From contig FN648885.1 in the NCBI GenBank assembly GCA_000310025.1, forward strand, positions 401,964-465,963: 64,000 bases of DNA, in the 5' to 3' direction. The stretch's first letter is position 1; each line of letters begins with the position of its first letter. The notes beneath the pieces are model-generated. The model saw only the letters and a program-made list of their open reading frames with translations. It ran no database searches and was not told the origin of the DNA. The DNA comes from Ectocarpus siliculosus (lineage: Eukaryota > Sar > Phaeophyceae > Ectocarpales > Ectocarpaceae). Positions 3,021-64,000 of this stretch are shown piece after piece. A program made the translations under genes and the position numbers.

Positions 3021-3138
3021 ATTTTAACGACGACAAAAAAAGAGGGCACGAACGAGGAAAAAAAGGAGGGGACGGGCGAAGCGTAGGCTGGCTAAGAGAG
3101 CAGCACGCACCGCCCGAGAGAGACAGCAGGGTCGACTT

Positions 3139-4173
3139 CTTAGGGTAGCAAACTGGAATGTGCGGACTCTGGCTGTAAACGGGAAGAATGGGTACGGGCG
3201 AGCCTTAAGCATCCTACACGAGGCAGCGAAGCAAGATGTATCGGTGGCAGGGCTACAGGAGGCCACGAGGCCAGGTCAAACGGAGTTCGCCGCAGCGGGT
3301 TTCCGAGTGTTCTGCTGTGGTACGGAGAAGCGTAATATCCATGATGTGGGAACAGTTAAAGAGTCACTGTGCAAGACCTCCACTTTCACCACGAACTATG
3401 TCGATGAACGCCTCATGGCCATGAGGTTTGAGATGACGGGCCACCGCGGAGCTGTCAACTTCGTTGCTGCGTACGCCCCAACCGAGGTCGCTGCCGCTGA
3501 CAGCAAGACAGAGTTCTGGGGAAAACTTGACAGTCTCGTGCGGAGGATTCTCTCCATAGAGTGCGTGTATATCCTGATGGACGCCAATGCTCGGACGGGA
3601 GAGAGGATGGATGGGGAAGACGAGGGCGTCATGGGGATACACGGGCGTGATGAGCTAAACGAGAATGGCAGACTGCTGCTGACCTTCGCAGCTGAAAACA
3701 AGCTAACACTCGCGAACACGTTCTTCGAGACACGCAAGGTTGGAATATGGCACACTTACAACGGTGCGTCAGGGACCGACCGCTGGCGCCTCGACTACAT
3801 TTTAACGCGGCAGACACACCGCGGCCGAGTGTCTAACATGGTTGTCACCCCCCAGCCGGTATACCCAGTCAAGGCGGACTCAGATCACAACATACATGGT
3901 GATAGCCACCGTCAACCTCGGTGGCAGGCTTGCCCACAACCGAGCAGCCCGGACCAAACCGAAACAGAAGCAGTTCGACCGACGGGAACTGCAGGTCGAA
4001 GCAACGCGATGGGAGGTGACTACGCGGTTCCTCCTCAACCTCGACCAACAGCAGGGCGAACGAGCGACCACCACCCCGGAGAAAGCGACCGAGTTCACCA
4101 ATGCTCTCCTCGAAGCGGTGAGGGCGATACTACCCAAGGAACCGCGGAGACGACGCACGCAGGAATGGTGTGA
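3139..4173 (+). pseudogene. LINE ORF2, apurinic endonuclease (EEP) part, frameshifted
   Basis: This is the exonuclease-endonuclease-phosphatase domain that nicks target DNA for LINE integration. Family landmarks are visible in order: VANWNVRTL at the start (the conserved Asn), LQEATRP (metal-binding Glu), a MDANAR block where the family has GDFNA, DRWRLDYIL, and finally SDHN, the catalytic SDH. The domain itself is therefore essentially intact. Just after SDHN, near 3893, about four extra bases shift the reading frame. The following linker continues as MVIATVNLGGRLAHN in another frame up to about 4170. The frame is open upstream of 3139 with a basic leader, so the true start lies further left. 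Confidence 0.85.
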
Positions 4174-6349
4174 GACCTGAGACAAGAGCAGCATTGGAGG
4201 AGGCCCTCACCAAACGGCGGGAAGCGCGCCGAGCGATGAAGGACAAGTTGAACAAAACATCGTGGAGGGCCCTCAAAGCAGCGTGTAAGGGAGTGACCGC
4301 AGCAGTCGAAACGGGCATGTATGCCCACCTGGACAGATATGTGACGGGACTCGAAGCGATCTACAAGGACCGTGATATGCGAGGCCTCTACCAACACCTC
4401 AAGAGATCAGTGGGGCTCAGCGGGAGACAAGCGGGAGGAGAGCAGCCCGTTGTGGACGAGAATGGCGTGCTGCTCCGGAGAAAGAACGACATCCTCCAGC
4501 GATGGGCGAGATTCTTCGGCACCCTCCCCAACACCAAGTCCCCCACCCTGAACCCAGACATCATCGAACAAGTGACGCAGCGACCGGCGACACGTGCCAC
4601 TCGACGCTTGGGAGCGGTGCCAGACCTCGAAGAAATGGAATGGGCAACGAAAGGACTGCAGAACTGGAAGGCACCCAGCAATGACTCCCTTCCTGCAGAA
4701 TTGCTCAGAATCGACGTCGACGACGAGAAACCTATCGTCCTGGAGCACATCCGTGACATCCTCGTTGAGGTGAGGAACGGAGGAGAGATCCCCCACGAGT
4801 GGAAGGACGCAACCATCAAGGTGTTGTACAAGAAGGGTGACCGGTCCAACTGCAACAACTTCAGGGGGATCCCGCTCCTATATCACGTAGGGGCAAGGTC
4901 CCCATCAAGATCATCACCAACTGCCTAAGCTCCTTCTGTGAAACCAACAACATTCTCCCGGAGGAACAATGCAGGTTCCGACCCGGGCGATCCACCATCG
5001 ACATGCTGTTCGTCGTGCGCCAACTCCAGGAGTTGGAGCGGAGAAGGAAAATACCGCTCTACATGTGCTTCGTCGACCTGAAGAAGGCGTATGATTCGGC
5101 GGACCGAGAGCTGCTGTGGAAGGTCCTGGCCAGGGCCAGGATTCCTGATGAGATGATCGCCGTCATTCGCCAATTCCACGACGGAATGCGGGCGCGGGTG
5201 CGCATGGACGACGGAGAGTTTTCGGCCTGGTTCTTGGTCACACAAGGCCTACGACAAGGGTGTGTGCTGTCCCCACTGCTGTTCAATATCTTCTTCGCCG
5301 CGGTCATTGAGGTCTTTGCCATTCCATTCAGCGAGATGATGTTATTCTGGAGAACCTCGTGTACCTGGAGGAGGAGACGGGAGCGGGGGCGAGGACACCA
5401 CTTGACGGAGTGCGGAGGGCGGTATGGGGGATGCTGTATGCCGATGACGCCGGCGTCGTATCGAGGTCTGCCGAAAGACTGGCAAGAACGATGACCGTCA
5501 TCGAGGAGGTGTTCGGGGAGTTCGGGCTGACGGTATCGGAGAAGAAGACGGAGACGCTCCTGATGCGCGCAAAGGAGAAGCACACAACAACACCACCGCC
5601 CCCCCCGCCGCCACCGCTGATCATCGAGGCAGCAGGGCAGAGGCATGCCCAGACGCCTGAATTCCGATACCTAGGTGGCCTCGTCAACGAACATGGCGAC
5701 CTCACCCGTGAGATCAATTACCGGAGCAGAACGGCGTGGGCATGCGTCAGGAGATATGGCCAGGAGCTCTTCGACAGGCCGAAAGCACCGTTCCGACTGA
5801 AGACTCGCCTGCTCCAGGCCGAGGCGATGGAGGCACTGCTGTACGGCTGCATGACATGTACCCCACGTCAAGACCAATACCGGACGTTGCGGACGATACA
5901 CCACCGACTGCTCCTGCGAGTTATCGGTTTCCAACGCAAGAAGGGCACCTACGGGCAGCTTTCCTACGCCCAGACCCTGAAGAGGGTAGGGTGCCAGAGC
6001 GTGGAAACCACTATCCGGCAACGGCGCCTGCTGTTCGCGGGAGCGCTGGTAAGGCAGCCGGACGGACTACTCCCGAAACGGGTGATGCTTTGGCGAACTG
6101 GTGGGAGGGGAGGGCCCAGGCAGGGGAAAACCGGAGCAAAACTGGCAAATGTGCCTGAAGGACGACCTCAAGATGTTCGAAGCAGAGCACGGATCTACGG
6201 ACGCCGAGCCATGCTTCTTCGGAGTCCCGGAAATAACTTGGATAGAAGCAGCGAAGGTGGACCGGGGGGTACCGTGGCATACAGGGGTACTGCAGGGAGC
6301 TAAGAGGTTCATGGCCTCCTTGCACAAGAAGGAAGAGGAGGCTAGCTGA
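4170..6349 (+). pseudogene. LINE ORF2, reverse transcriptase part, multiply frameshifted
   Basis: This is the reverse transcriptase of the LINE at 3.0-6.8 kb, spread over several frames. Segment 1 (to about 4893) carries the linker and RT block 1 ([22 protein letters not shown]). Segment 2 (to about 5335) has CRFRPGRSTIDMLF, catalytic motif A FVDLKKAYDS with its Asp, and motif B QGLRQGCVLSPLLFN. Segment 3 has motif C LYADDAGVVS with the Asp pair, then the FRYLGGLV thumb region and a long C-terminal part that includes a run of prolines near 5595. A last shift near 6098 leads to a short terminal frame ending at 6349. Key RT residues are all present, so decay is by indels rather than loss of motifs. 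Clade assignment (Jockey/RTE-like) is a guess. Confidence 0.88.
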
Positions 6350-36555: not shown

Positions 36556-37230
36556 TGGGAATTTTGTTTTTTTAGTTGACCCCGCCCCCCTTGCGTGGAC
36601 AATGTATAACAAATACTTTGGTAACTCCATATTATCTGGGGAGAGATGAATGGTAGTGGTGTTCACCAATGAAGAAACGACACCGACATACACACGCTCA
36701 GCAGTAAACCTCGCACTCCATCGTCCACACTCGCGACGTGTCCATTCAGTGGCATTCAGATTGCGTGTTCGGTCCCAATAATGCCATTTTTAGCGGAACA
36801 TTGCGGCATCCCGTCGGGGATGCATAGGTCTCAAGTACGACCTCTGCATCCGCTTGTTTTGTTTATCTCGGGGGGGGGGGGATATCACAACACAATATTC
36901 GCCGGGGAACTCAAGGCCTCCCATGATGCCTGTAACTGAAGGCCACCCACGATGCCCTCGTTGCGTGCGTGTGGTGAATATACCGTAGGTTACATGAGAT
37001 GTCACGCCCGTTGGGCCGATTTTCAACGCCCGTTTGTTCCACTGCGAAAGGAATTGCGTTGCCCAACAAGGGGGACACTGGAACCGTCTCGTCGATATCT
37101 GTCCGAAAGTCGATCGAGCTTGCATCCTCTCATTGAGTGCAAACGCTCAATTCACGCGTGAGCTATTGGCGCGCCGCCTTGACAATTTTTTCCATCGTCC
37201 TTCTCTGCTCATGTTCTTCAAAACCCAGGC
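36556..37230. other. No gene seen; where the first piggyBac catalytic block would be expected
   Basis: The piggyBac domain upstream of KLFAICD, including the first catalytic Asp, should lie here or in an adjacent exon. It was not found in any frame. A G-run occurs at about 36870. Confidence 0.4.
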
Positions 37231-39031
37231 ATGAAGCTGTTCGCGATCTGCGACACCGAGGGGTATTGTTTCGTCAGCAGCGTCGACGGTGGAATGAACG
37301 GGGACCCGAAGCTGAGGGTCTGGTTCGACTGCCCACTGGGGCGGACCACTCGCCACGTCCTACATGTCCTGCTCGGCGCCTGCAAGAAGTTCGGTGACAA
37401 GATCGACGGCTCTGGCGTGCACATCGCAATGGACAACTACTTCACAAGCCCGACCCTGTTCGATTGTCTCGCGAGCCACGACATCTTCGCGGTGGGTACG
37501 TGCCGGTCAAATCGAACGGGTGGTGCCGTGCGTTACTTGCAGAGCCTCGATCGCCGCCCCGTCGAGCGGGGAGAGATGCACTTTGCCCGCGCCGGCAATG
37601 TCGCATTCGTGCAGTGGCTCGACTCGAAGGAAATCATTCTGTGCAGCTCCATCCACATCGCCCAACCTCGCGCCGCCATCGGGGAGCCCAAGAAGGAGGA
37701 CGACGACGGCGGCGACGACCACTTCGCACCTCTACCGTACAGGTGACCTTTTATTTTCGTTGTTCCCCAGATTCATGTTGATCTCTGTGTTTTGATGCCG
37801 GGTGTCTCGCTCGTATAGCCGTCGGTCAAACTGGTTCGTCGTGTGATGGAGTTCTCGGTTTCGTGCTTGACAACATGCAGCGATTCGCGTTGGTGCCTTT
37901 CGTATTCGGTTCATCACACACGTTGTTTCCACCGGTCGGGAAGGTACTTGGGGCTTGTGTATTATTTTATTGACAGGGGCTGACGCCCTCTTTCCAGTGC
38001 GTCGTTCCTGCTGTGGATAGTGTGTTGCCTAACCCAGGTGCCTCGTCTGTCCCCTGCCATCCCGTACCCATCCGTTCATGTTCAGTCTGCGCAAAGCTGG
38101 TCAGGCTGGGAAAAGCTTGGAGCTACAGCAGCCGTGGATGCGCAAGGATTATGTTGCCAACATAGGGGGAGTAGACACGGCTGACCAGCAGAATGGGTCC
38201 CACACCCATGACCACAAGTCGTGCACGAACCACTGGCGACGAGTGATGGAGGGCAAGTTTGAGCAGACGTTCACCAACATTTTTGTGATGTTCAAAAAGT
38301 ACGTGTCCCTCTTGGAGGGTCAGGCCAACAAGAGGATCAAGGGAGGAGACCTAGAGCTTGAGGTGGTGGAGAAGTTGGATAGGGTGTTGGTCGAACTGGG
38401 CAGGTTGGCCAAGATGGAGAGGGCGGTCTGGGACGAAATGTTGTCGACGGAGCTCATGGCGAGGTGCAATGTTGGTAGACCGAACAAGGGGGGGAGACCG
38501 GCGGCGGTGGCGGGTGCCCCGGACATAGTGTGGGGGAGCATTTCGGTTGAGACTCAACGCAAATGCATGCACCCCGGATGCAAGAGTAAGACATCGAAAG
38601 GATGTGCCTGCGCGGAGTTTTGTGTTGGCAAACAGGCAGGGGACCGGGGTGTTTTGATGTGCCAGGCATGCTTCAACAACCCTGGGAAGCACGCTAGGGC
38701 CGGACATGCTCAACGGAACCCCCAGAAGTACGGGGTGGTGGGACGCAAGGATCTCGTCTGGTGCTCGAGAGCGCATTTCTTTGTTGGCCTAACTTTGTAC
38801 GTTGAATGTGGCATGTGCTCCGTTGTGATTTGCCTGGGGGTCAAACTGTTCCTACAAGTGCATATTAGTGTCGTTCATCAACCATCTTTCCTTCCGCGAG
38901 GGATTTGTTGTGCCTTTATCGTCCACCTGTGTTTTCTTGAAAACAACGGTGGACGAGTGAAGTTTTTGTGCCTTCGTCGTTTACCTGTGTTGCTGATAAC
39001 AGTATTGTGGTGTGACTTTGTGGTTTGGTGA
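37231..39031 (+). pseudogene. piggyBac-type transposase, 5'-truncated (DDE_Tnp_1_7)
   Basis: Cut-and-paste transposase core in two exons. Exon A, about 37231-37742, follows an ACCCAG acceptor-like site. It carries MKLFAICDTEGYCF and the second catalytic Asp in HIAMDNYFTSPTLFDCL, then the family's GTCRSNRTGG. A 295-bp GT-AG intron joins in frame to exon B (from 38038), which has YVANIGGVDTADQ with the third acidic site. It ends in a Cys-rich C-terminal domain (CMHPGCKSKTSKGCACAEFC, MCQACF) typical of piggyBac. Residues after about 38770 become hydrophobic and are probably non-coding or beyond an unseen intron. The N-terminal half with the first catalytic Asp was not found, nor were terminal repeats with TTAA sites. 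It is therefore probably a dead or domesticated fragment. The LTR element at 39085 sits just downstream. Confidence 0.8.
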
Positions 39032-40746: not shown

Positions 40747-42711
40747 TTACCCCCCATCGTCCCGCACCACGCAGATACCATTGTACACGGTCGGATGGGC
40801 GCCGGGATGCCCCGCACCCGCACCCGCACCCGCACCCGCAGACAACGCCACGAAGCTGCCGTCGCCGCTGCCGCCGTTGCTGTTGCCGCCTTCGCCGCCA
40901 TTGTCCAACCAACAGCCATCCTCATCGCACGCGTCCTCCGCTTCTTGCGCTGCTCGTGCCGGTGTAGCTGCCGATGTGGGCACTGCGATCGCCCCCCCAG
41001 TTGATACGGCGGGGGGTATCTGGCCGCAGGTCGACGAAACCTCCAGTGCCACCGTTCCTGCAGCTGACGGCGTCCCGGCCGTTCCCCCCATCGACGAGTC
41101 GGGGAAAACACCAATACCTGTCGTCGTCCCCACCGTTGTGTCCGCTGCTGAAGCCACGCCTGCTGACGACACAAGTGGTGGGCCCGGCTGCACATGCAGT
41201 GCCGGTTTCTTGGCCGCCAATTCCCCCCATTGCCTCCGTATGTCAGCAAGCTCTTCTTTCATGCTTTCGAGTTCATCCGTCGCCGGTGCCGCCGCCGGTG
41301 GCACCACTGATACCGTCGCTTCAACAGCAAGTGCCTGCTCCCCGGCCGTTCCCCCTGCCGCCGCCGCGGGGAAGACTCTGTTGCCGGGGGTCCCCGCTCT
41401 CGCCGCCGTTGCTGCCTCCGATGCCGCCGCTCCAGCCGCGAGTGCCTGCGCCGCGGCCGTTCCCCCCGCCACCGTAGCGGGGAAACCACCACCACCGGTC
41501 GCCGCTCCCACAGCAGTTGCTGTGCCCCATGCCACCGCTCCATCTGCAAAGGGGAGGAGCGACTCCGGCTGACGCCTGTGCCTGTGCCTCCTCCAGCGTC
41601 GTCGCTTCCGCTGCTGGTACGGCATAGTGTCGTTGCCACTCGCGTTGAGACCCTCTCCATCACCGACATGCACGTGCTGTTGCATGCGGCCGGTTGTGCA
41701 ACACATGCGGCGCCGATGACCATACTCACCGCAGGCAGTGCAGTGGCCTTCAAAGCGTCGTGGCGCATTGCAGTCGCCGAGTGAGTGTCCATGCCTCCCG
41801 CACCTCACGCACTGATGAACGGCACCCATCGGAGCGCCTGGCGGCGGAGCTGACTCCTCTTGCGGGTACACGGCGTTGCGCCCACAGTCATAGAGCCTTT
41901 CAGATCCCCACGTCGGGAAATTAGGAGGTGGGTGGTGTACAGGTGGTGGTTGTGGATGAACCCACTGTTGTTGCTGCTGCTGCTGCTGCCGCCGCCGTTG
42001 TTTCCCCTTCTGACCGACGCCACCATGACCGCACCCCAAACCACCGACCGCCTTCGATTTGCCCAATTCCTTGATCTCGACGTTGTTAGCGTATGCCGTG
42101 CGAACAACTTTTTCCACTTTCGCTCGGGGAATGGTGGGGTCGGCCAGGATAGACTTGCGTTCGACATCGTACTCGGGCGAAAGCTGGCGAACAATGATGT
42201 GGACGATTTCCCGCTCGGATTTTTCAATGCCGACAGCTCGCATGATGTTGATGATGCCATCAACTCTGGCAAAGAAAAGCTTCGGGTTCTCGCCAGGGGA
42301 CATCTCAACTGCCTCCAACCGTCGCACAAGCAATGTCTTCTCGGCGTCGAAAGTAGGCAAAACCCATTCGCGGATCACCCTCCACGCCTCAGGGACGCAG
42401 TCGCAAGCAGCCAACCGTTCTTCAATGTCCGTGCCGCAGGTTGCTTCCAACAGATATCCCCACGCCCGCTTGTGTGCCGTAACGAGCGCCGCACCATGAA
42501 CCCGGTTCAGGTATATGCAATCCAAACAGCTGATGACAGGAACATAGCCAGTGGGATAGGTGTCTTCAAGCGTCTGCTCCAAACCCTCGCTAGCCAGGAA
42601 AATCCGCAATCTCCGCAACCAGTTCACGGCCTTCGCTAAATCTTTCGGGATTTTGGGAGGTATGCGACTGCTGCTGTAGCCGCTCAACGCACAATTTCCG
42701 TCATTCATCAT
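40747..42711 (-). CDS. Gag-like polyprotein of the LTR element
   Basis: 654-codon intact ORF that would form the retrotransposon's ribonucleoprotein particle. The N-terminal 200 residues resemble the UBN2/copia Gag region (KDLAKAVNWLRRLRIFLASE, RLEAVEMSPGENPKLFFARV, IIVRQLSPEY). Then come a basic, Gln-rich, Pro-rich linker and two CCHC zinc knuckles, CVRCGRHGHSLGDC (303-316) and CTACGEYGHRRRMC (326-339), numbered from the GTG two codons upstream. The C-terminal 300 residues are Ala/Gly/Thr-rich imperfect repeats, with an amphipathic piece ELESMKEELADIRRQWGEL. Translation is taken from ATG 42711, which lies 2 bases after a small upstream ORF. The stop is TAA at 40747. Confidence 0.9.
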   Translation of the reverse strand: MMNDGNCALSGYSSSRIPPKIPKDLAKAVNWLRRLRIFLASEGLEQTLEDTYPTGYVPVISCLDCIYLNRVHGAALVTAHKRAWGYLLEATCGTDIEERLAACDCVPEAWRVIREWVLPTFDAEKTLLVRRLEAVEMSPGENPKLFFARVDGIINIMRAVGIEKSEREIVHIIVRQLSPEYDVERKSILADPTIPRAKVEKVVRTAYANNVEIKELGKSKAVGGLGCGHGGVGQKGKQRRRQQQQQQQQWVHPQPPPVHHPPPNFPTWGSERLYDCGRNAVYPQEESAPPPGAPMGAVHQCVRCGRHGHSLGDCNAPRRFEGHCTACGEYGHRRRMCCTTGRMQQHVHVGDGEGLNASGNDTMPYQQRKRRRWRRHRHRRQPESLLPFADGAVAWGTATAVGAATGGGGFPATVAGGTAAAQALAAGAAASEAATAARAGTPGNRVFPAAAAGGTAGEQALAVEATVSVVPPAAAPATDELESMKEELADIRRQWGELAAKKPALHVQPGPPLVSSAGVASAADTTVGTTTGIGVFPDSSMGGTAGTPSAAGTVALEVSSTCGQIPPAVSTGGAIAVPTSAATPARAAQEAEDACDEDGCWLDNGGEGGNSNGGSGDGSFVALSAGAGAGAGAGHPGAHPTVYNGICVVRDDGG

Positions 42712-42713
42712 GC

Positions 42714-42857
42714 TCACCCGTTGTGTACCGAGACCAGCTCCACCAGCTGGCCCAGGTAGACGTTCTCCCGGCAGCCATATGCTATCTCCGCTTTTGCCTC
42801 AGCCAGACCCAATTCCAACTCCTTCTGCTTCTGCTTGTCTTTCTCCTCGCCTTCCAT
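42714..42857 (-). CDS. Small ORF in the retrotransposon leader, abutting gag
   Basis: 47 codons on the minus strand: MEGEEKDKQKQKELELGLAE, then AKAEIAYGCRENVYLGQLVE. It ends in TGA two bases before the Gag ATG. It is charged and helix-prone. It could be the true N-terminus of Gag in another frame, a translated upstream ORF that controls Gag, or chance. The frame is open further upstream through the leader repeats. Confidence 0.4.
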   Translation of the reverse strand: MEGEEKDKQKQKELELGLAEAKAEIAYGCRENVYLGQLVELVSVHNG

Positions 42858-51175: not shown

Positions 51176-53639
51176 ATGGCTAGCGTCATCGGGCGCAGTG
51201 CGTCCTTGACGATCGACGACTCTTTCCACTTCGAGCGAGAACAACGGCGATGGAGCTACCGCACCAAAGAGAGCGACGGCGGCGATGACATCGGCAGCCG
51301 CCGGAAGTTAATGCACAGCAGCAGCACCCGCAGCACCCGCAGCACCCGCAGCCGAAATCTTGTTCGCAGCAAGAGCATTGCGGGAGGCGAAGGCTGCCGA
51401 GCGCACGCCCCGTCCGCCTCCTCATCTTCGCCATCGAAAGGCAAACAAATGCTCCGGTCGGTGGTTGGTTTCCTGTCGAGGGCAAAGAGCGCCAAGCCCA
51501 GAAAGCCAAGGAGCTTCACCATGACGGTGCCGGCTTCCCCGGCGTCCTCGCTTTCGAGGACTAACAGCGAGTCGTCTGCGTCTGCGCACGAGGGATGCCA
51601 AGACGATGACAGCGGCAGTAGTGCCCGGGGAAGCGCGCACGGACACGGCGCGGCAACCTCCCGGCCGCGGGTTTCCTTTGTTACTGATGTGACGGTGAGA
51701 GAGGAGTGAGAGACATTAGTTTGGTTGGAGGCGGTTGTTTTGTCAAGGTTGTCCGCGTTGTTGTGTAATGATGACCAAGTTTCCCCGAAAGATTTTAGAA
51801 AGTACTGTATTATATATAGTATAAAGAGTACTTGTATATCTCACGGAAACCACGACGTACCCGTAAGAGATATTGTAACCGCGGTCGAAAGGGATGTGCT
51901 GAAGTCTTTTCAGTGAGTGGGGGAAAACCGACTGCTGTTCTCCTCGCAAACCACAGCTAATCGAATCAGCCACATTGGTTATAAGAGCCCCCCCCTGCTC
52001 TCCCGAAGAGCTGATCTTTTTGCGCAAGTTATCACGGCGTGTTGTGCACAAATGCGTACGTATGTACGTGAAGAAATTCATCCAACCTTTGTGGGCTTGT
52101 GTGCTTGTGTGGGCGAAACGCTGTGTTTGAAGAGTACGGCAGAAATGAGACAGGCGGAACACCACAAGAAATGTCCACAACGCAGTAAAGTTGCCAAGTC
52201 TTCTGGATCCCGAAAATTGTTCTAATTTTTCATGCTTCATCTTTTCTTTTTTTTCTTAATATGACACAACGAATCCATCTCTACATATCATAGAAAAGAG
52301 TCAGAGACAGACTAGCAATGAATTCATAGCGTCAGAAAAAGCTACCTGTATGTCTACGATTTCCCAGACAGCATATAGGGACATCTCCCCTGCGGGTAAC
52401 AGGCTCAAGAAAACAGTTTCGTATTTGTTTTGTGTGTCTCATATATGTTATGTTGTTGAAGGTGCAGCAGAAAGGTGTTAGTCGGGCGTTTCGTGTGTGG
52501 CACCCTGTTATTCGTAGGGCATGCAATCTCTCTGAATTTTCAAACGTATTTTCAGTATATTTTTTCTCCGAAGTATTCGTTGTCTTTCTCCACTTGAGAA
52601 ATAATCGGTCCAACTCGGACGTCGCTCCGCGCAGCAGGTGGAAGCATTGCGGTGGATGGCAGACTTTTTTAGGGCCTTTCCTTTGATAGTCCCCACCTGA
52701 TGTGGTATCTACAAAGCTCCAGTTAAAAAGAGTTAGAAAACTGTGCCAACACCAATGGTGGCGTAGTTTAATACGATGAGGATTGCTGCCACTTCGGCGC
52801 ACCAGTGTCGTTTTTACCGTGGTTTTGGGGTCCGGCCTTCTCGTTTGACCTCCCCCCCCGCCCCGCCCTTGCTGAATTTTTGTCGGTGTTTGGTACAGAC
52901 GGTGTTCATCGAGCAAATGAAGGAGGAAGAGGTGCGCAACACGTTCTACTGTCGCACGGAGTACGCCGCCTTCAAGGAGGCTTACCGCAGGCACCGCGAC
53001 AACAACCCGGACTGGTGCAGGGGCAACGACGTGCTCCCGTGCAACTGCGACGCCTGCCGAGACGACCTCGTGGAGGGAGGTCCGCACATATACTCGGCGG
53101 CGGTTTCGTCTGCTGGTGGTGGTGCCTCCTCCTCCCAAGCAGACGCTCACATGGGCAAAGAGGACGGCCCATACGACCATGCTCCGCCACCTCCGCCCAA
53201 TCCCTACGCACACGATGGTAGAAGCGGGGGAGACGGGAGCGAGCAGCCGGAGTGCCACCACGAGCCCCCTTCCCCGGTGGGCGCGGTGTTCCAAGACAGC
53301 CCGGAGAAGGAGGAGGAGGACAGCGGCAGCAGCGGGGGCGGGGGTTTCGAGTACGCCGCCGAGACAAGGCCGACTCAACGGCCATGCCCCGCCCCCGAAG
53401 GCAGGAACAGGCGGCTTCACTCGCACACGCGCAGTCGGACGTGGGGGGTGGGGAGCATCTCGTTGGCGGTGCCCCCGGCGACCAGGTCGCACAACCGGGG
53501 CGGCAGCTTGGACGACTGGGGCGTGACCTCGAGCGTCAGGGAGGCAGTCAAGTGCCACGGGGAAGGGTACGCGTACAAGACCCTCCGCCTGCAAGGCTTC
53601 AGCGATCTCTACATCAAGACGCACTTCTTGCCCTCGTAA
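51176..53639 (+). CDS. Unknown protein, CxCxxC family, paralogue A (2 exons, complete)
   Basis: Exon 1 is 51176-51694 (173 codons) and exon 2 is 52899-53639. The intron is 1204-bp GT-AG in phase 0, giving 419 residues. Exon 1 is Ser/Arg-rich and probably disordered, with a tandem STRSTRSTR run near residue 44 and a Lys/Arg-rich patch. It ends RPRVSFVTDVT. Exon 2 opens TVFIEQMKEEEV, then NTFYCRTEYAAFKEAYRRH (187-205). Next comes CNCDAC (Cys 221, 223, 226) in PCNCDACRDDLVEG, and finally a long Pro/Gly/Ser-rich tail ending in YKTLRLQGFSDLYIKTHFLP. No signal peptide or membrane helix is present. The same core and intron position recur in the gene at 59370. Function is unknown; the Cys triplet could bind metal. 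Confidence 0.75.
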
Positions 53640-56600
53640 CTACAGTAATAAACGTTGCGGCCTGGTGATGCTGCCGTAGCCGGGGGGTGGTTTTCCTTGT
53701 GGGCACCAGATTTAGGAGAGCGCCTGGTATGGTGTACCTCACGCGGTTGGATACTCTCGTGTCGACCAATGGCGCGCGTGCGATTTGGTGGATAACGGTT
53801 ACCATTTTATTGGGGAAACACTTTTTGTTTTGGTTTGTAAATACTGCTTGTGGTGTTGCGATTATTTTTTTTTCATGCTGGGGCGGTGCTGTTTGAGAGA
53901 AACATGTTTTTTCTCCGGCCGAGAGCTTTGAGTGTGGTTGCTTTTATTGCCTGATGAGAGACGAGCGAGGTGGCAAAACGTGTATAATATTTGTCTGTTT
54001 GAGAGACAAGCGACGTGTGATATTTGTTCTGTTTGAGAGATGAGAGACGAGAGATTCGAACGAACGTGTATGCGTACGATATTTGTTCTGTTTGTTGCGT
54101 ACCGTGGTTGTGATGAAATCGTAAGGACACTAACTAACTGGGTTGAAAACTTATTTGTCGGCCAGCAAGGGGGAGTAGAGCTAGCTTCCTCTACCAGGAG
54201 CGGCCATTGGACGGGTCGGTACACATCATACTCTATAAACAAGGTGCGCAGTAGTCGCGTTTTTTCCCAACGTAGGACTTGAAAGAATCGGGCCGTGGCA
54301 TGGCCATGTCTTGTAGTTATTTATTGATGGCGTGAGTGGGCCGCGTGGGCTCGCAAGGGATAGAGGGGTGGGTATCTAGAGCGTTCGTCGCTACATGTTC
54401 GGTTCAATTGTTGATTGCCGAGGCGCAACGCCCGAGCGTTGAGTTGCAAGCTGCTGGGGTCTGTCCCCTCTCGTTTTTTGTGGGGTTTGTTTTGTGGTGA
54501 TGGCCGGTTTTTCTCGGCTGCGCCGTCTCGTGAACAAACTTAGACTTGCGAGGCGTGCCGGCGGAAGTGGCGTAGTGTCTTGACGGTTCGGAGGGCGGCG
54601 TTCTCGAAAATGTTGTACAGGCGTGTGGTTGGAACGAAGCAGGTTTTCGGGGTTTGTGGTGACGGGAGGTTTGTCTGAGATTTGGGGATCGCAACGATTT
54701 TGCGCTTTTTTTTTTTTTTGTCGGTGGGTACCTGCCTGCTGCACACGTCCCGTGTCACTGGTGCGAGAGAAGATAGATGCAGGTGATGATGGTGCACAAA
54801 GGCACTTTTTTTTTGCTCTTGAATTATTTTCAGGGTGGCTTTTGTTTTGCTCGGGTGCCTTCGTTTTTCCCCACGGGAAGGGTACTCTCAGAGAGGGCGA
54901 GAAAGCACGCACGGCATGTACCGATTGGTTGACCGGTAGCGGTGCTTTATCAGAGAAAACACAAACGCCATTACTTTGAGTTTTCACTTGTACCCTGTGC
55001 CGAGAATGGTTTGCTTGTCTTCGAGTAGAATTTAATCCAAGTAGCGCTCATCGGAGGGTATTCTGCGCTTGTATCCCGTGGCGGTTAAAGACGACCGGTG
55101 CAGACCAGAACCCCAACAAGCTTCACGGTGCGCGGTAGTCCCTCTCATTCCTCCATGAGCGCCCCAATTGGGCTTTGCTACAAGAATTGTGTGTTTTCGA
55201 AAACGTTGGGGGGGGGGGGGGAGGTAGTGTTGTGTTCTCTGGATGAGGAACGGCTAGAGCCGTGCGGGTATTCTACGTCAGCATTTTTCAGGTTGTTGAG
55301 GTGTGTGTGTACATCATGTCGAGGGGAGGCGAGAACGGGCCAATGATTTGCTATCTATGTATCCCGGAGACAGTTTTTTTTTTTTTGAGGGGGGGGTTGA
55401 AGCAACAATATTGTCGTGCAGCGTTCCCTGGCGAGGTTGCGTTGTTGTTTGTTGTCTCTAGTTTATGTCTATACAATATACGGCCCGTTTGTGCAGGGTC
55501 TACCGAAGCATTCATGAAGGTTGCAGGAGTAATCATCATGGCTTATACATCCATGTGGGCAGCTGAGGGTGGTCGATTACTGGTTGGTTTTACAAGTAGA
55601 GGATGAGGAATGATGGAGAATTGCGTGACGTCTACAGAGTACGCACAGCGGAGTCTGTGGTGTGTTTTCAATTCGAGATGTTATGTATGCAAGGCGTCGT
55701 CGCGTAGTAACTCTTTTGAGCTTGCTGTTGATCGATGTACTCCGTATTTCTCTGTCGTTTAACTTGCGCACAAAGGACATGTTTCCAATCGTTGAACACC
55801 TGAAACATGAAGCAATCCACTCTCGGATTGAGGGTCGTTGGCGGATGGGTCTGAGCGACTTTGCTGCGTCAAGGTGTGTGTGTGTTGATATGGTTGTGTT
55901 CCGTTCAGCTAAGGGTACACCGCTTCAGCGATGTGCATGTATGGAGCCTAGTGTACCTGAATGTATGATGGATGCACACCACACGCTGTCGTTGTTTGTA
56001 TGGGGCGGGAGAGACGTCAATGAGTAGAGAGTAAACCAGTCGTCCATGTTCGTTTGTTCCCCATATCGTACCTCGCGATTGTGTAGTACATGCGCTTGTT
56101 TGTGGATAGACCTTGGGGGGAAGGACAGACGGCTGAGCCCTGCTCGCATTCGAAGGTTCAAGGCAAAAAAGTAATGCTGCAGAAGTATTCTTCTGTGTGA
56201 CCCCTTGATCGGAGGCCAAAGTCCGTATTGTAGAGTAGGTAGAAATGGGAGAGAAAGAATATCGTGTGTTCGATTGTGTCGTCGTCTTACATTTAAGAAT
56301 TCGATCTCTGCTCCTTATTTATCTTTGTGTGCTATTTAGGGTTCAACAGAAGCAGCGGGCGCCTCCGTTTGTCAGGTTACATGTAGCTGAACCCCCAGGG
56401 GTTGGCGTTTCAACAGACAACAGGCAGACAGATACGCTTCAACCTCGTCTTCTCTAACACCAAGGGGTTGACTCTTCGGAGAAATTCTACAGCAGTTAGC
56501 AGCTGCGTAGTTTCTGTGACAGGAAAAGAACGGTTAGCACAGAGACTTCACCAGAACTTACTACTTGTCTTGCTGCGTCATGCACGGTCGTTGCAAGGAC

Positions 56601-59369
56601 AGTGGCCGGGGAATGGACAACCACCCAGCGGTTAGTTACCTCCTCCGTGTGATGGCCTTGTTCTTGAGACCCGGTTAGACGCCCACACACACGCACGCTT
56701 GACGTCTTTTCATTGGTCAGCCGGTTAGCGGTCGATGCTAATAATTGGACTGTAATAGGACAAAAGACACACACGCCACACATCAAAGAAAAAACATCGA
56801 CTCCAACCTGAAGGAAGTTGGGGGCATTAGAATTGGCCAACATACCACCGACCGCAGGACGGATGACACCAAACATTAACATTACGATTTCAAGGTAATA
56901 TAATGCATGGTGAAATATATGAAAATGAGCCTCGATGCCTTGACCCCAATTTACGTTGTAGACTGTCGTTCGGGGGGCGCAACTACTATTATACTGCAAG
57001 TGTGTGAGCATTTAATTTGTAGTATTAATAATAAGTCAATTGCTGGTCGATGTACACACTACTACTACTACCAGCTACTAGCATTACATACATGGACAGC
57101 ATACAGTACTGCATACATGGACCAGGTATGCATGCATAGTAAGAAAATATAGTGCTGGCTTGACGCACCAGCCGAGCGGGTCACACACACACCACGCACA
57201 CAACTAAACACGATGTTGCAAATAAATGGAAGGGGGAGGAGGAGGATCAGGAGAGTACTGACTGCCAGATTGCCCAACCGCGTTTTTTTTGTTTACATCG
57301 CCCCCCTCCTCCTCCCACCCCCAACTCGTTGGAAAAATCAGTTTTCGCGGCCGCTAGGCCGTGCCTTGGCCGTGGGTGAGGGATACGGTTGGTTACGGTT
57401 GGTTGGGTTGCGTTGGCCACGCGGTGTGTGACACATCGACACATCCCTGTGAGGAACTTCACTATAACCTACCATCTACGAAGTATACTGCTGTACGCCT
57501 GTACGTAGGTTCAACGTCCAGTTAGACCTGAAGAACCACCAAAACATGCTATAAATAAGGCCTATAGATAGAAGACTATTGATTGGAAGAAATTTGAAAT
57601 GTGTTGTTGTTCTCGTCTGCGGACCACGTGTTAATCTGATCACTACACGTCTTTCGGGCGAAGTTCCAGTCGCTTTCTGCCCGTTTGTTTACCCCTCCCC
57701 TGCTGCCCCCTTCTCAAGCTCTCGAGGGATCCAAAACCGGTTTCTATAGCGCAGGAAGACTGCATTGCCCTGGCTGGCGGTTGTCGAGGCAGCAAGCAAA
57801 GGTAAGGGAGAAGAACGATTGGAATTGGCTAACATGTGTAGGTAGAATTGGCGGGTGACGATGCCATGCAAAAGCCAGCTGAGAGAGCGAGCTTAGGCCG
57901 GCAGCAGAGCAGGTCACGCGTGTTGTGCTGTAACCCAACGGTCTCTCTGTCGTCACTGGATAGGGTAGCCGAGCACGCACGGGTTGGCCACCCACACCTA
58001 CCGAATGTCCGTTGAGTTCATGCACTCTCTGTTGTTTCACGCTTCCCTCGGTCCCCTCCTTGGTGTGTGCGTAGTTGGCAGCAAAAACCTCTCGGTAGCT
58101 TTTGTGGGCCCTGCCGCCAAAATCAATTCAAAAGTTCGGCTGCTGCTGCTGTTGTCACATGTGTGCAAGGGAAGCAGAGGACGGCACCAAAAGTCCGCCC
58201 TGGCTCGCCGTACACGATTTCATTCGATTTGGAACGTCTTGAGCGAGGTAGCGTGGAGATTGAGGGGTCAAACCTTACCGCTTACGTTGAGCGCATCAAT
58301 ATCCCCGTGAGCGTGCGGACGGGAGAGAGACAGAGTCCGATGCGCTAATGGTTGGCTCGGTCCTGAGCAGTGGCTGAACGGCTGTGTAGCCGCGCGAGCA
58401 ACGGCCGCAGGAGGGGGTTGTCAGAATATCCATTGGCGGGACCATGGAGGGCAAAACCGTGCGATGATTCGGGGGTGGTGCTTTGCTCTCCGCACCAACA
58501 GAAGTCTAGAAACTTTGCAGCAGCTTTCGGGCACACGCATTGACGTGCCGCTCTATGTGTGTTGTCTCCGTGTGGCTGGGTTCGCATGGAGCAAGCAAAT
58601 GTTTGTCACACACACGCATTGGTTGTATGCATATACTTGCCCGCCTGTAGTGTAGGGGATCGTGTGACCTATGCACCCACTCCAGGCTACTCCTCTTAGA
58701 ACAGCACATCGTGCGTGTGTCGCACATGCGAAAGAGACAGCAGGGGGAAAGAAACGTGCCTTGAACAGCATGTATGCAAACACAGGTTGGGTTGGTCCTG
58801 CTGCTGTAGAGCATGAACGCAACTGGCTGGTGTGTCACCTTTTTAGAAAGAAAGAGTTGATTTTTTCCTGCTCGGCGCCCTGTGCGTGGCCACCAACAAA
58901 TGAGAGAGGGACCAAATGAACGGCGCGTTCGCGTTTCGAGAATTTCCCGCTCGGTTTGTGCGATGTGGTGTCGATGATGCATGCCCTTAAAATCATGTAC
59001 GAGACAGCAGCCACAACTAACTATTGTAACTGCTTCTGCTCCTGCATCCGCGCAGCAGCACATGATGAAGCACATGCATAATGCTGTTGTGGGTTTCAAT
59101 GCATGTAGTTCCAGTTTCACACTGTACGTAATTCTGTAATTCTCTGCATCCCGCCTTCGGTCCGCTCTCGAACGTCTGCCGTTCACCTTCCGTCTCACAA
59201 ACCTAACCATTGGTCGTCGCCCGTCTTTTTCGCTGCGCAGAGGGAAGATACCTACAGATCAAGGGAGCCAGGTCGCCAGGTCGCCAGGAACGTGGCTCCA
59301 GCGCGCAGTGACTCTCTTTGAAACAGCACCGATTATCCAACCAGCATCACCCCAGCCGGCATTGGCATC
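53640..59369. other. Long intergenic region between the two paralogues
   Basis: The first 1-2 kb is G/T-rich on the plus strand and may be the 3' untranslated region of paralogue A. Short exon-like segments were noticed on the minus strand near 56830-56910 and on the plus strand near 58185-58310, but they could not be joined into genes. G-runs lie at 55208 and 55389. Confidence 0.4.
53979..54095. repeat. Three imperfect tandem repeats
   Basis: Repeated (A/G)ATATTTG-x-TCTGTTTG followed by GAGAGA(C/T)-(A/G)-AG and CGTGT, in units of about 35-60 bp. Confidence 0.6.
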
Positions 59370-62300
59370 ATGGCCCTGCGACCGCATGATCCGCGATCGA
59401 ACAACAACACGCGCGGGATCTCGGAGCTGCGCGTGCTCGTGCTTCACAAGAAGTCCTTGAGCACGCAGCAAGCCGCCGGCCGGGACAACCACCACCACCA
59501 CCACCCCGAAAGCTACGCCACCAATGGCTTTGGCTTGAGTGCAGAGGAGGAAAAGAGGTTGGGGCTATCCACCAGAAACGCAGCCTTCGGCGAGGACAGA
59601 GGCCGCCTGAGAAGGAGGAGGAAAGGCGGCTTGGCTGCAGCCGCGCGCACCGGTGGCGGCGGCGGCGGTGGCGTCGACTTGAAGGGGGCAGCGACGCATT
59701 TTGCGTCCCATCCTAGCACTCCGCGGCCCCCTGCCGCTCCAGCTACTCCTCCTCCTCGTAGTACCTATTATGAATATGCGTACGAGGAGGATGATTATCC
59801 CGCAGCAGTGTCAAGCCCAGCAGGTGGCGCGACCGCCACCGACGCCAGCGGTCTTCCCGACACCCAGCCACAGGTGGCGCGGAACGTGTCCTTCAGCGAG
59901 GAAGTCAAGGTAAGGGCCACCCCACGAAGTCTGCCATCATTTTTTTTTTTCGTTTTTGATTTCCCGGCCGCACCTCTGTACTTCTGTAAGACCCTAGAGC
60001 TTCAGGTGAAGCGACCTGATCTACGAAGTACATACTGTATGTACAACAGCACTCGGTCCGCACGAAGAATGAGATCCCGGGCTTCGATTTCTGTCTAGAT
60101 CTATTGTATGCTACAAGGGGTCCGGGGAGGGGGGCGGGGGGTACACTCGACAGGCTGGTAGGATCCACACGATAACATAGGTGGACGTTTTGGTTTTTTG
60201 AGAGCATGGGTATGGAGCATGCAACTCTACGAAAATATCGTACCGCTTGCTCGTCTTGGTTGTTGGACGATGTCTTCGTTGAATTTGAGCGAATTAATGT
60301 AGCCGGTCGTGCACGGCGATTTGTAACAAAAAATGCCGCTGTAGCGAGCCCATGCGGGGTCACCTCCTGTGGTGGTGCCACAAGAAGTACCCACACCGGG
60401 CATGTGGCATGTACGACGTAGATGCACTTCACCAATTGCGCGGTCTGGCGAAGAATTTTCTGTCACACCTCGGCTGTTGTGGTGGATGGAGGGTATTTAA
60501 TTCCCATTTAGTCAGCCAACCGCCTCAGATGTTCTCACTTTTTGTCGACATACAGTGCAATACAAACACCTTGCTGCGGAGGTCACGTTCGTAGAGGATA
60601 TCTATTCATAGGTCTAGGTGAAACACCTTTCGCGCGTGACGTCAGGTACGATCGTCCATACAAGTAGATGCCTTGCGAAAGAGAATGGACAGTGTAGCCT
60701 CAGAATTGATCGGCGATGAGTACAGAGAACTGTATACCATGGTACAGAGCGTTCGTGCGTTCGAAACAGCAAGACATTTCGCAACGTGGAAGGCACCGCA
60801 CCGTCGCCACCGGGTCTCTTGATCCTTCTATATCTGCGCTCCCGCCTGACCTTTGCACGCAGGCTAGATCTCAACCATTTTTTTGCACCGAGACTTTATT
60901 CACACCCAGACCAACAGTTCGAGCTGTAAGATCCACAGAAGTCTCGGTTTGATTAGCGGAGAAATGACGAGACCGCTCTTTTGTCTTGTTTCCCACCTGA
61001 ACTTCCTGCAAGTTGTATCTCCTCGGGATTACAAAAGCGGGCTCACATATAGAGATTAAATGAAACCCTAACTAAGGCCATTTCTTACGGGTTTTTTTTT
61101 TAGTTGTCTTTTTCGTATTTCCTTTTTAAAAAAAAAGACAACTGGCCACAGAACCCCTTCTCACGGTGTCTTTTTCAGGGGAAAAAGGTCAACAAAAACA
61201 GACAACCCGTTTTGGACAGCCCATCCTGTTTTTTTCTGGGGCAGTTATGGATAAGTCGGGGCTGTCTTTTTCTGTGGTCTTTTTTTGGTCACAACCACAT
61301 GATGCTACCTACAAACTTAATCTCTCGACGGGTGATCCCCGCAAACTCTAACGGTGTTCACACGAGCTGTGTCATGTGACTGGTGCAGAGTCAGTAGCAT
61401 CAGCGATAGCGTTGTTTTTTCATTCGGCTGGACCAAGTGGACAACCCGATGTGTGCGACGCAAACAAGCGGCAAACGAGCCGAGATAGTCTGGACGCAGC
61501 TGCGGGGGGTCTTTGTTGGTGTGCTGTCAGCTTTTGCGAACCCAACTTTTGGGCGCCCTATAGCCTCCTGATCTGTGTCAACCATCATACAAGACGGACC
61601 ATACGCGCAGCTCATGGCGGATACCTTTGTCATCGCTGTTGCTGGAGTGGGTGGCGAGGGAGCATCGATGAACCAAAGTTGCGACACAGGCCAAAGAGCA
61701 AAAAAAAACTGGTTGCTGGCGCCGTGGGTATTTTTCCGGCTTGCTGTTGACCCTCGCCACCTCAGTTTCCGTGCCTTCATTCGCCCTGTGGTCTCTAACA
61801 GCCACCACCCAAGACGGACCATACACACAGCTCATGGCGGATGCCTTTGTCATCGCTGTTGCTTCACTGTGTGCGGAGATATCACCGAAACACCATAGCG
61901 GTGGAAGGTGTATGTATGTGTGACGAACGGCCTTTGCAGGGGCTCTTTTTTTCGGTCGATGGCTCGGAATAGAGAAAAGGATGGACCAGCACCGCAAGAA
62001 GGGGATCATCTTTTTTGTAGATCATTTTTTGGGTCGTCTCTTTTGGGGGGGGGAGATCTAATCAAAATACACCGTAACAAATGGCCAAACCGTGAGTTTG
62101 GCGAACGACAACCTCGAGTTCCCAACAGGCAGGTGATCTCCTCGTCTCCTCGAGGTAAGAAAGCAAAGACAGCACGACTGCTGCTGTGGTTGTCGCGCAC
62201 TCGCCAAGTTGCCACACAGTACGAGTGAGACTTTTCACACTCGCACACCACACAACGGGAATATGTCCTCGTACAGTATGCTGACCAACAGCAGCGCGAC

Positions 62301-64000
62301 AACTAGCGGCAAGTGCTGCTGCTGCCACCGGTGCCGCAAGCTAGTCTAACACAGATGTGCCGCCGTTCTCTGTAGTTTTGCCCCCCCTCCCGCCGAGGTT
62401 TGCGCCTGAGGGTGTTCCCGGCCCGCGCGGTTCAGGGAGCTCACTGGCCGCAGCCCCATCTCCATATCTCCACACAGCCGCATACCAGTGCAACCTCCAC
62501 CACAGCCTATTCGTTGTTTTTGCCGCACACTCAACTCCAACTCTCGTTCTGGTTTTGGTAAAGCGGTGAAGATCCCCCACGCTTTTGCACAGAGAATTTT
62601 GTGTTTGCGCAGAGAATTCTATGAATCTTGCTCTTCTCGCTCGGGGTTGGGGTTTGAAGTCTGGGTGCAAAAAAGCGGGTAATGAGACCTAGCCTCAGCT
62701 TTGTGGAAAAGCGGTTAACCCCTTTTAGGACGCACAGAAAAATTCAGTGTTGTTGCGAAATTTCTGAAATGTAAGAAAGAGAACGAGCGATGACTACTGA
62801 TTGGATGATGCGGGCAGCAGTTCCAGTCCTGGGTGCAATTGCAAAGCTGTCTCCTCACCTGAGCCCTGAGCCGACCCTTGTCCAAAACCCCTATCAGATG
62901 GCCCCTCGATTTGATAGGGATTACTAAACATAACTGCCGGAGCGTGTTAAACAGGGCACGAAAAGGAAGTTTTTTTACATATTCCTCAGACCCAGCCCTG
63001 TGCCTCCTTTCATCGGTGGGCGAGTTGCTTCTCCCGCGGTGCCCCTAATGGCGCTTTCCACCTACGCACAGGATAGTCGCGGCGCAACTTCGCACATGAA
63101 CCTGCACTGCATGTATCGTCCCGCGATTCTCCCTGCCACTACCCTCTTACTCCTCCCCTCTACAAGGCACGCACACTAGGCTATAGCTCTCCCCGTGTAC
63201 CCCCGGCACCCCCCTTTGTCGAGGAGTCCAAAGGTGGAGGATAGGGTTAGCAATTCTTCGCGAGCTAGAACACGTGAAGAATAAAGGGGCCAAAAAGTGG
63301 CCCCAAATGACGATCTAGCCCTAGAGGGCACGCTTGTTCTCCCAAGAGTTCTGCGGATCTTGCCGTTCTAATTCTTGGTCTCGGTGTGACGTCTGCTGGG
63401 TGCAACAAAGCGTGCAAGACACGGCATCAAACGCTTTTGGCGATCGAGGGTGGACAAACGATGCTGCTGCTGCTGCTGTCACGACATTGAGTATCCCCCC
63501 ATTCTACACACGCGCGTTTTGATTTCGTTGTACTCTAGGAAGTGCAGATCGAGAATCGACGGCAGACGTACGGCAACAAGGCCAGCAGACGCCAACACTT
63601 CTACTCCAAGGCCGAGCTTGCCACCTTCAAGCGTGCCTGGCACTGCCACGTAAAGTCGAGCAGCAGGCCGGTGAATGGGCTGATGGCGTGCGGGTGCCCC
63701 GGCTGCGACTACGACTACGACGAAGGGCGGGCACCGCCGACCTTGCAAAAGGTAGTCCCACCCGCTGACTACAACCGTTGGGTATGGGAGGGTTAGACAA
63801 GTGTTTGAAGCTAGAGTATTTGGCTGCAATTGACTTATAAATCTCTGCCGGAAGACGTGAAATTTGTTTGGCTTTTCTCGTTGTAGAAGCTGGCGAAACT
63901 CGCCACGCTGATCGAGCTGCTGTCGCGACTTTGCTTGAAGAGGTTGTGTGTTGTCGAAAGAGGGCGGCCGGATCGCCTGAAGGGGAGGACCACCGAAAGA
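59370..64000 (+). CDS. Unknown protein, CxCxxC family, paralogue B (partial, runs off right edge)
   Basis: Exon 1, 59370-59909 (180 codons, phase 0), starts MALRPHDPRSNNNTRG. It has a His run (residues 41-45), Gly- and Pro-rich disordered parts, and ends RNVSFSEEVK. Exon 2, 63539-63751, reads EVQIENRRQTYGNK, then RRQHFYSKAELATFKRAWHC and CGCPGC (Cys 231, 233, 236) in ACGCPGCDYDYDEG. Exon 3 starts at 63887 (KLAKLATLIELLSRLCLKRL) and is open to the window end. The core and the phase-0 intron after VSF-x-x-x-V match paralogue A. The first intron is 3.6 kb and holds tandem repeats; paralogue A's is 1.2 kb. A long disordered N-terminus, a conserved core and no membrane segments suggest a soluble or scaffold-like protein. 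Function is unknown. Confidence 0.7.
61102..61143. repeat. 12-bp perfect inverted repeat
   Basis: AGTTGTCTTTTT at 61102-61113 and AAAAAGACAACT at 61132-61143 form a short-loop hairpin within the first intron of paralogue B. Related GTC-T-run pieces follow to 61290. Confidence 0.7.
61440..61880. repeat. Diverged ~220-bp tandem repeat inside the large intron
   Basis: The best conserved part is 61589-61643 against 61809-61863 (AAGACGGACCATAC, AGCTCATGGCGGAT, CCTTTGTCATCGCTGTTGCT). Weaker similarity extends on both sides. Both units also read open on the minus strand (AMTK-x-SAMSC-x-YGPS), so they could derive from coding DNA. Confidence 0.75.

Follow-up and report, generated by a model that had tools for sequence, protein, structure and literature searches.

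In PPP1R15 (GADD34/CReP), an RVxF motif is followed by S-E-x-V and then by a helix, an apparent likeness to the genes described here. In Phactr1 and in neurabin/spinophilin bound to PP1, according to the accessible parts of the two articles, a phiphi strand is added after the RVxF motif, and an amphipathic or five-turn helix lies further on (PMC7599070, PMC12185105). Here, we analyze a stretch of 64,000 nucleotides of the Ectocarpus siliculosus genome (contig FN648885.1, positions 401,964 to 465,963, or C472:401964-465963 in our numbering of the contigs; hereafter the window), which carries two genes that we call A and B. Judged by their sequences, A and B are diverged tandem paralogues with one common core of ~75 residues, split by a phase-0 intron. 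We read the order of elements as a low-complexity N-terminus, an RVxF-like strand, a capped amphipathic helix and an end of the form H...CxCxxC-D..EG. Our leading, though tentative, proposal, to which we give less than an even chance, is that by analogy the core works like an RVxF-phiphi PP1-docking subunit; membership of that class is not claimed.

The initial annotation had described two same-strand genes, 5.7 kb apart, with a common architecture in which a phase-0 intron lies between a VSF and an FY block, a CxCxxC motif follows, and the core is kept while the N-terminal arms have diverged. This description held up: the gene models (Table 1) read as described, the blocks are found at the positions listed there, and the core is 34% identical in otherwise diverged paralogues. 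Both introns are of the GT-AG type, in phase 0, and fall in the same alignment column (VSFVTDVT/TVFIE in A and VSFSEEVK/EVQIE in B, the slash marking the junction); the splicing of both genes is deduced from the sequence only. The alignment of the two cores has a score of 76, which was reached in none of 5000 shuffles (mean 24.7, maximum 54), and likewise none of 5000 shuffles reached the score for exon 2 (67; shuffle maximum 55) or that for the whole proteins (91; shuffle maximum 82). BLASTP of A against B gave an expectation value (E) of 3e-7, but composition correction and masking were off and biased flanks lie inside the alignment. In a six-frame search of 174 kb (the window plus 110 kb; frames of at least 20 residues), exon 2 of A found B at E 0.0011 and exon 2 of B found A at E 0.0086, in both cases as the best non-self match; the next match for the B query, a 21-residue frame at E 0.046, looks like noise. 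Hidden Markov model (HMM) searches over this 174-kb set returned A and B only, the best E values thereafter being 0.39 (core), 0.23 (exon 2) and 0.24 (FY block); five weak frames from these searches were read and look like noise. Over 298,064 residues, a relaxed FY pattern was matched at two places. These two occurrences must be A and B because both genes carry the pattern, and the pattern is not an independent test because it was derived from A and B themselves. The CxCxxC motif alone is frequent by chance, and many further frames of the window carry it. We infer that the core is the only clearly common part of A and B, and that it forms a compact interaction module within low-complexity sequence.

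For protein-level searches of the 189-Mb assembly (492 contigs), the queries were the core portion of exon 2 of A, exon 2 of B, a B motif, both first exons and the A tail. These searches returned A and B themselves, a fragment of B exon 1 on contig C151, and eight weak matches (E 0.36-0.89), two of which were scanned and had no motif. A query with an invented consensus gave one locus at E 0.7, which we counted as noise because neither an FY nor a VxF motif was seen there, nor a core in the frames listed. The protein searches cannot gauge the size of the family, because at 34% identity the A query misses B and the B query misses A. The copy on C151 (C151:7478-10654, corresponding to 58608-61772 of the window) is 96.7% identical and comprises exon 1 of B with its 5' flank and roughly half of the intron. 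In the flank, 19 of 760 aligned bases are substituted; the figures for exon 1 and the intron are 9 of 537 and 30 of 1850. Exon 1 of the copy also has a deletion of three bases and an insertion of one base at codon 136, and its frame is shifted. Exon 1 and the intron have diverged to a similar extent, judged from few changes, and we read this copy as a dead fragment; the first 20 kb of C151 yielded no FY exon (best E 0.063). The frameshifted piece indicates that the locus does throw off dead copies, and A and B could themselves be non-functional, either as decayed duplicates or as mis-joined exons. However, both genes keep open frames, GT-AG sites and the 34%-identical core despite their diverged arms, suggesting that the core has long been under selection, and we consider it very improbable that they are non-functional.

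The RVxF regular expression has exactly one match in each protein, RVSF at residue 165 of A and RNVSF at residue 171 of B, at homologous places, and the V, V and I that follow VSF are identically spaced in both (V-x-x-V-x-I). The FY blocks of A and B have the consensus FY-[SC]-x-x-E-[YL]-A-x-F-K. Invariant between A and B are, furthermore, a His and three Cys (H-x13/15-C-x-C-x2-C), an Asp and a Glu-Gly pair (D..EG). The capping box and the hydrophobic staple of a helix involve positions N', N-cap, N3 and N4. In layout, Y-[SC]-x-x-E-[YL] looks like a helix N-cap with a capping box and a hydrophobic staple, which are described as a motif pair in the accessible part of an earlier article (PMC4429112), and this reading seems to suit the FY block better than a role in a metal site does. 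AlphaFold models of the second exons predict a helix directly after C18 in A (residues 19-35; confidence 72-81 in the FY block, model mean 67.5) and directly after S23 in B (residues 24-40; confidence ~59 in the FY block, model mean 43.1).

If the core docks on PP1, the RVxF-like strand (RVSF or RNVSF, then V-x-x-V-x-I) would occupy the RVxF groove and extend as an added beta strand, and the FY block would form an amphipathic helix, capped by Ser/Cys at N-cap and Glu at N3 with an aromatic staple, which would lie against PP1 or a partner. The end with the His and CxCxxC would fold back, perhaps around zinc, and the divergent, disordered arms would direct PP1 to distinct sites or substrates. 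The single RVxF match per protein, its homologous position and the identical spacing of V, V and I are consistent with this proposal, as are the capping-box layout of the FY block and the helix that both AlphaFold models start directly after the Ser/Cys. V-F-I in A and V-Q-I in B lie at residues 7-9 after the Phe, and a phiphi strand is expected 5-8 residues after RVxF. The PP1-docking segment of spinophilin/neurabin (PPP1R9) resembles A and B in having an RVxF-like motif, a hydrophobic strand and Y-S-x-x-[ED]-[Y/L]; TYSNEDYDRR, which follows RVxF in spinophilin, recalls YSKAEL of B and YCRTEY of A. The PP1-binding domain of Phactr1, as far as the accessible part of the article describes it, is also similar in its non-canonical RVxF motif, phiphi strand and amphipathic helix (PMC7599070). 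The genome also carries exons near C8:1836434 that we take, from PP1 signatures, to be PP1-like, with the RVxF groove read in part.

A series of observations weighs against PP1 docking. Among 5000 shuffles of each protein, 1116 for A and 562 for B contain an RVxF match by chance. A spinophilin/neurabin profile ranks the joined core of A 308th of 1707, the joined core of B not being listed, and hhalign with spinophilin/neurabin gives a probability of 0.3% (P 0.21). A and B thus have no significant match to this profile. Unlike spinophilin/neurabin, they have no DYDRR-type Arg motif, with EYAAFK and ELATFK in its place, and no PDZ domain in the Pfam scan. Their spacer is also longer: the distance from the Phe of VxF to the Tyr or Leu that follows the Glu measures 27 (A) or 32 (B) residues, as compared with 16 in spinophilin, and the corresponding Phactr1 stretch given in the accessible text, F522 to Y534, is 12 residues (PMC7599070). 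The cores of A and B have no Trp in a common alignment column, and the accessible parts of the articles place the helix of Phactr1 and neurabin after the Trp motif (PMC12185105, PMC7599070). A and B differ from Phactr1 in being without the Trp motif or a matching Arg motif, and the accessible part of the Phactr1 article does not mention an end like their CxCxxC. Both AlphaFold models are weak; they rest on two sequences and cover exon 2, with VSF outside, and they disagree upstream of the helix, with strands 4-11 and 14-21 in B, and no strands but a helix at 9-14 in A. Because the tests for the Arg motif, the Trp motif and sequence similarity to solved members came out negative, A and B are not filed in the RVxF-phiphi-R-W class. 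As for PPP1R15, PF10488 had no match to A or B in the Pfam scan, and a genome search with it found nothing, yet 14 control genomes were silent too, so that this search is uninformative.

The initial annotation had suggested a possibly metal-binding domain, which the invariant His and three Cys would allow. Accordingly, the main rival to PP1 docking is a small domain that binds zinc: the His where the helix ends and the three CxCxxC cysteines would together hold one metal ion, with the FY helix as a scaffold, and the domain would interact with protein or nucleic acid. The invariance of the His, the three Cys, the Asp and the Glu-Gly in two otherwise diverged paralogues argues for such a domain, and in the model of A a second helix (51-59) runs through the last Cys, so that the two ends of the core could meet. 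However, invariance is weak evidence when it comes from two sequences, and in the window CxCxxC often occurs by chance; there is no match to a Pfam zinc-finger family, and the A model has no fold match in the PDB. We therefore consider a zinc-binding domain rather unlikely. The EsV-1-7 cysteine-rich proteins (PF19114) are like A and B in being rich in Cys, and this genome encodes many of them, but PF19114 had no match to A or B in the Pfam scan. The EsV-1-7 family is expanded in brown algae. In the assembly, the EsV-1-7 motif is highly repeated across many contigs (all 150 scored matches, from 880 candidates, lie over the cut-off), which fits the brown-algal origin of the DNA. It had no match in the 14 control genomes, a weak control given that a general eukaryotic phosphatase domain gave no match in them either.

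The initial annotation had called the family unrecognised, and it remains so: the searches of Pfam, NCBIfam, PHROGs and the PDB gave no credible match. In Pfam, nothing exceeded the cut-off for A or B, the best values being 0.043 for VIR_N (whole B) and 0.024 for Phage_SSB (core A). NCBIfam had no match, and PHROGs had only two weak matches to core A (0.17 and 0.27), which are at chance level. The PDB gave no match by sequence (E up to 10), nor by fold in a Foldseek search with the A model; the same model had four matches in a viral structure library, at E 5.5-9.8, which we attribute to chance. Scans that reach close relatives only found 61, 6 and 7 pattern stretches in IMG/VR contigs and 55 in GTDB genomes, and none was confirmed. 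The similar blocks in uncharacterised stramenopile proteins that the initial annotation had mentioned are kept as a lead. Literature searches, within one library, found nothing on RVxF with brown algae, work on a Plasmodium pseudokinase for RVxF with stramenopiles, work on yessotoxin for RVxF with diatoms, and no title naming such a domain among the matches listed. The core is thus unannotated and absent from the domain libraries searched.

This absence of matches to known modules, whether in Pfam, in PDB sequences or with the fold of the A model, is also what would be seen if the VxF strand and the FY helix bind some protein that is not PP1, for instance one of the cytoskeleton or of trafficking, and the genes encode lineage-specific adaptor proteins. 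Low-complexity arms around one short conserved module are usual in adaptors, and by a simple composition count disorder-promoting residues make up 84% of the sequence before VSF in both A and B, compared with 65% and 71% of the cores. However, nothing positive points to a particular partner, and we regard an adaptor of this kind as possible but somewhat unlikely. With respect to PP1 docking, a broader version of the proposal would make the core a stramenopile-wide PP1-recruiting module (VxF plus capped helix) that has been grafted into many unrelated disordered proteins in a lineage-specific expansion, which we consider improbable.

If the core binds PP1, a function could be assigned to a group of algal proteins that lack annotation, and there would be a hint as to how phosphatase targeting became diverse in brown algae; as a zinc module, the core would still be a new small domain for the libraries. 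On the sequence evidence, the A/B pair is real and its core unannotated, of modest interest given its two members, and the two genes are a clean starting point from which stramenopile proteomes can be searched with a profile.

Table 1. Features of genes A and B (positions are those of the window)
Feature	Position	Strand	Description
Gene A	51176..53639	+	419 amino acids; two exons, one intron; sequence-derived model
Gene A exon 1	51176..51694	+	low-complexity, probably disordered N-terminus leading to RVSFVTDVT; open frame, phase-0 donor GTGAGA
RVSF, RVxF-like motif, gene A	51668..51679	+	sole regular-expression match in protein A
Gene A intron	51695..52898	+	1204 bases, phase 0, GTGAGA...ACAG; contains a ~315-base genomic repeat
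Gene A exon 2	52899..53639	+	remaining core and long low-complexity tail, stop included
FYCRTEYAAFK, gene A	52944..52976	+	predicted helix start
Conserved His, gene A	52992..52994	+	residue 32 of exon 2; from alignment
CNCDAC, gene A	53040..53057	+	CxCxxC motif
Gene B	59370..63796	+	265 amino acids; two exons, one intron; sequence-derived model
Gene B exon 1	59370..59909	+	low-complexity N-terminus leading to RNVSFSEEVK
RNVSF, RVxF-like motif, gene B	59880..59894	+	sole regular-expression match in protein B
Gene B intron	59910..63538	+	3629 bases, phase 0, GTAAGG...CTAG; aligned position as in A
Gene B exon 2	63539..63796	+	remaining core; stop 63794-63796; 3' end uncertain
FYSKAELATFK, gene B	63599..63631	+	predicted helix start
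Conserved His, gene B	63647..63649	+	residue 37 of exon 2; from alignment
CGCPGC, gene B	63689..63706	+	CxCxxC motif

The 3' end of gene B is uncertain because alternative GT donors (63752 and 63782) and an acceptor before 63887 are visible by eye. A candidate extra exon of gene B lies at 63887-64000 and beyond the end of the window, where more than one frame can be read. The repeat in the intron of gene A (52242-52556, ~315 bases) has 39 other near-full-length copies in the genome, with 86-89% identity (40 scored of 1862 candidates), and only one imperfect 14-base inverted pair (52266-52279 and 52570-52583) was seen near it.

Elsewhere in the window, a long interspersed nuclear element (LINE)-type element occupies 3028-6300. 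Its reverse transcriptase is over the Pfam cut-off at 4841-5491, and further matches to an endonuclease (3028-4170) and to the reverse transcriptase (5311-6300) are under it. A match to the DDE_Tnp_1_7 transposase, which we take to be piggyBac-like, is located at 37183-37743, and the next frame, at 38033-39028, is without a Pfam match. On the minus strand, an open frame of 683 residues (40750-42798) has a match to a Copia-type gag that falls slightly short of the Pfam cut-off.

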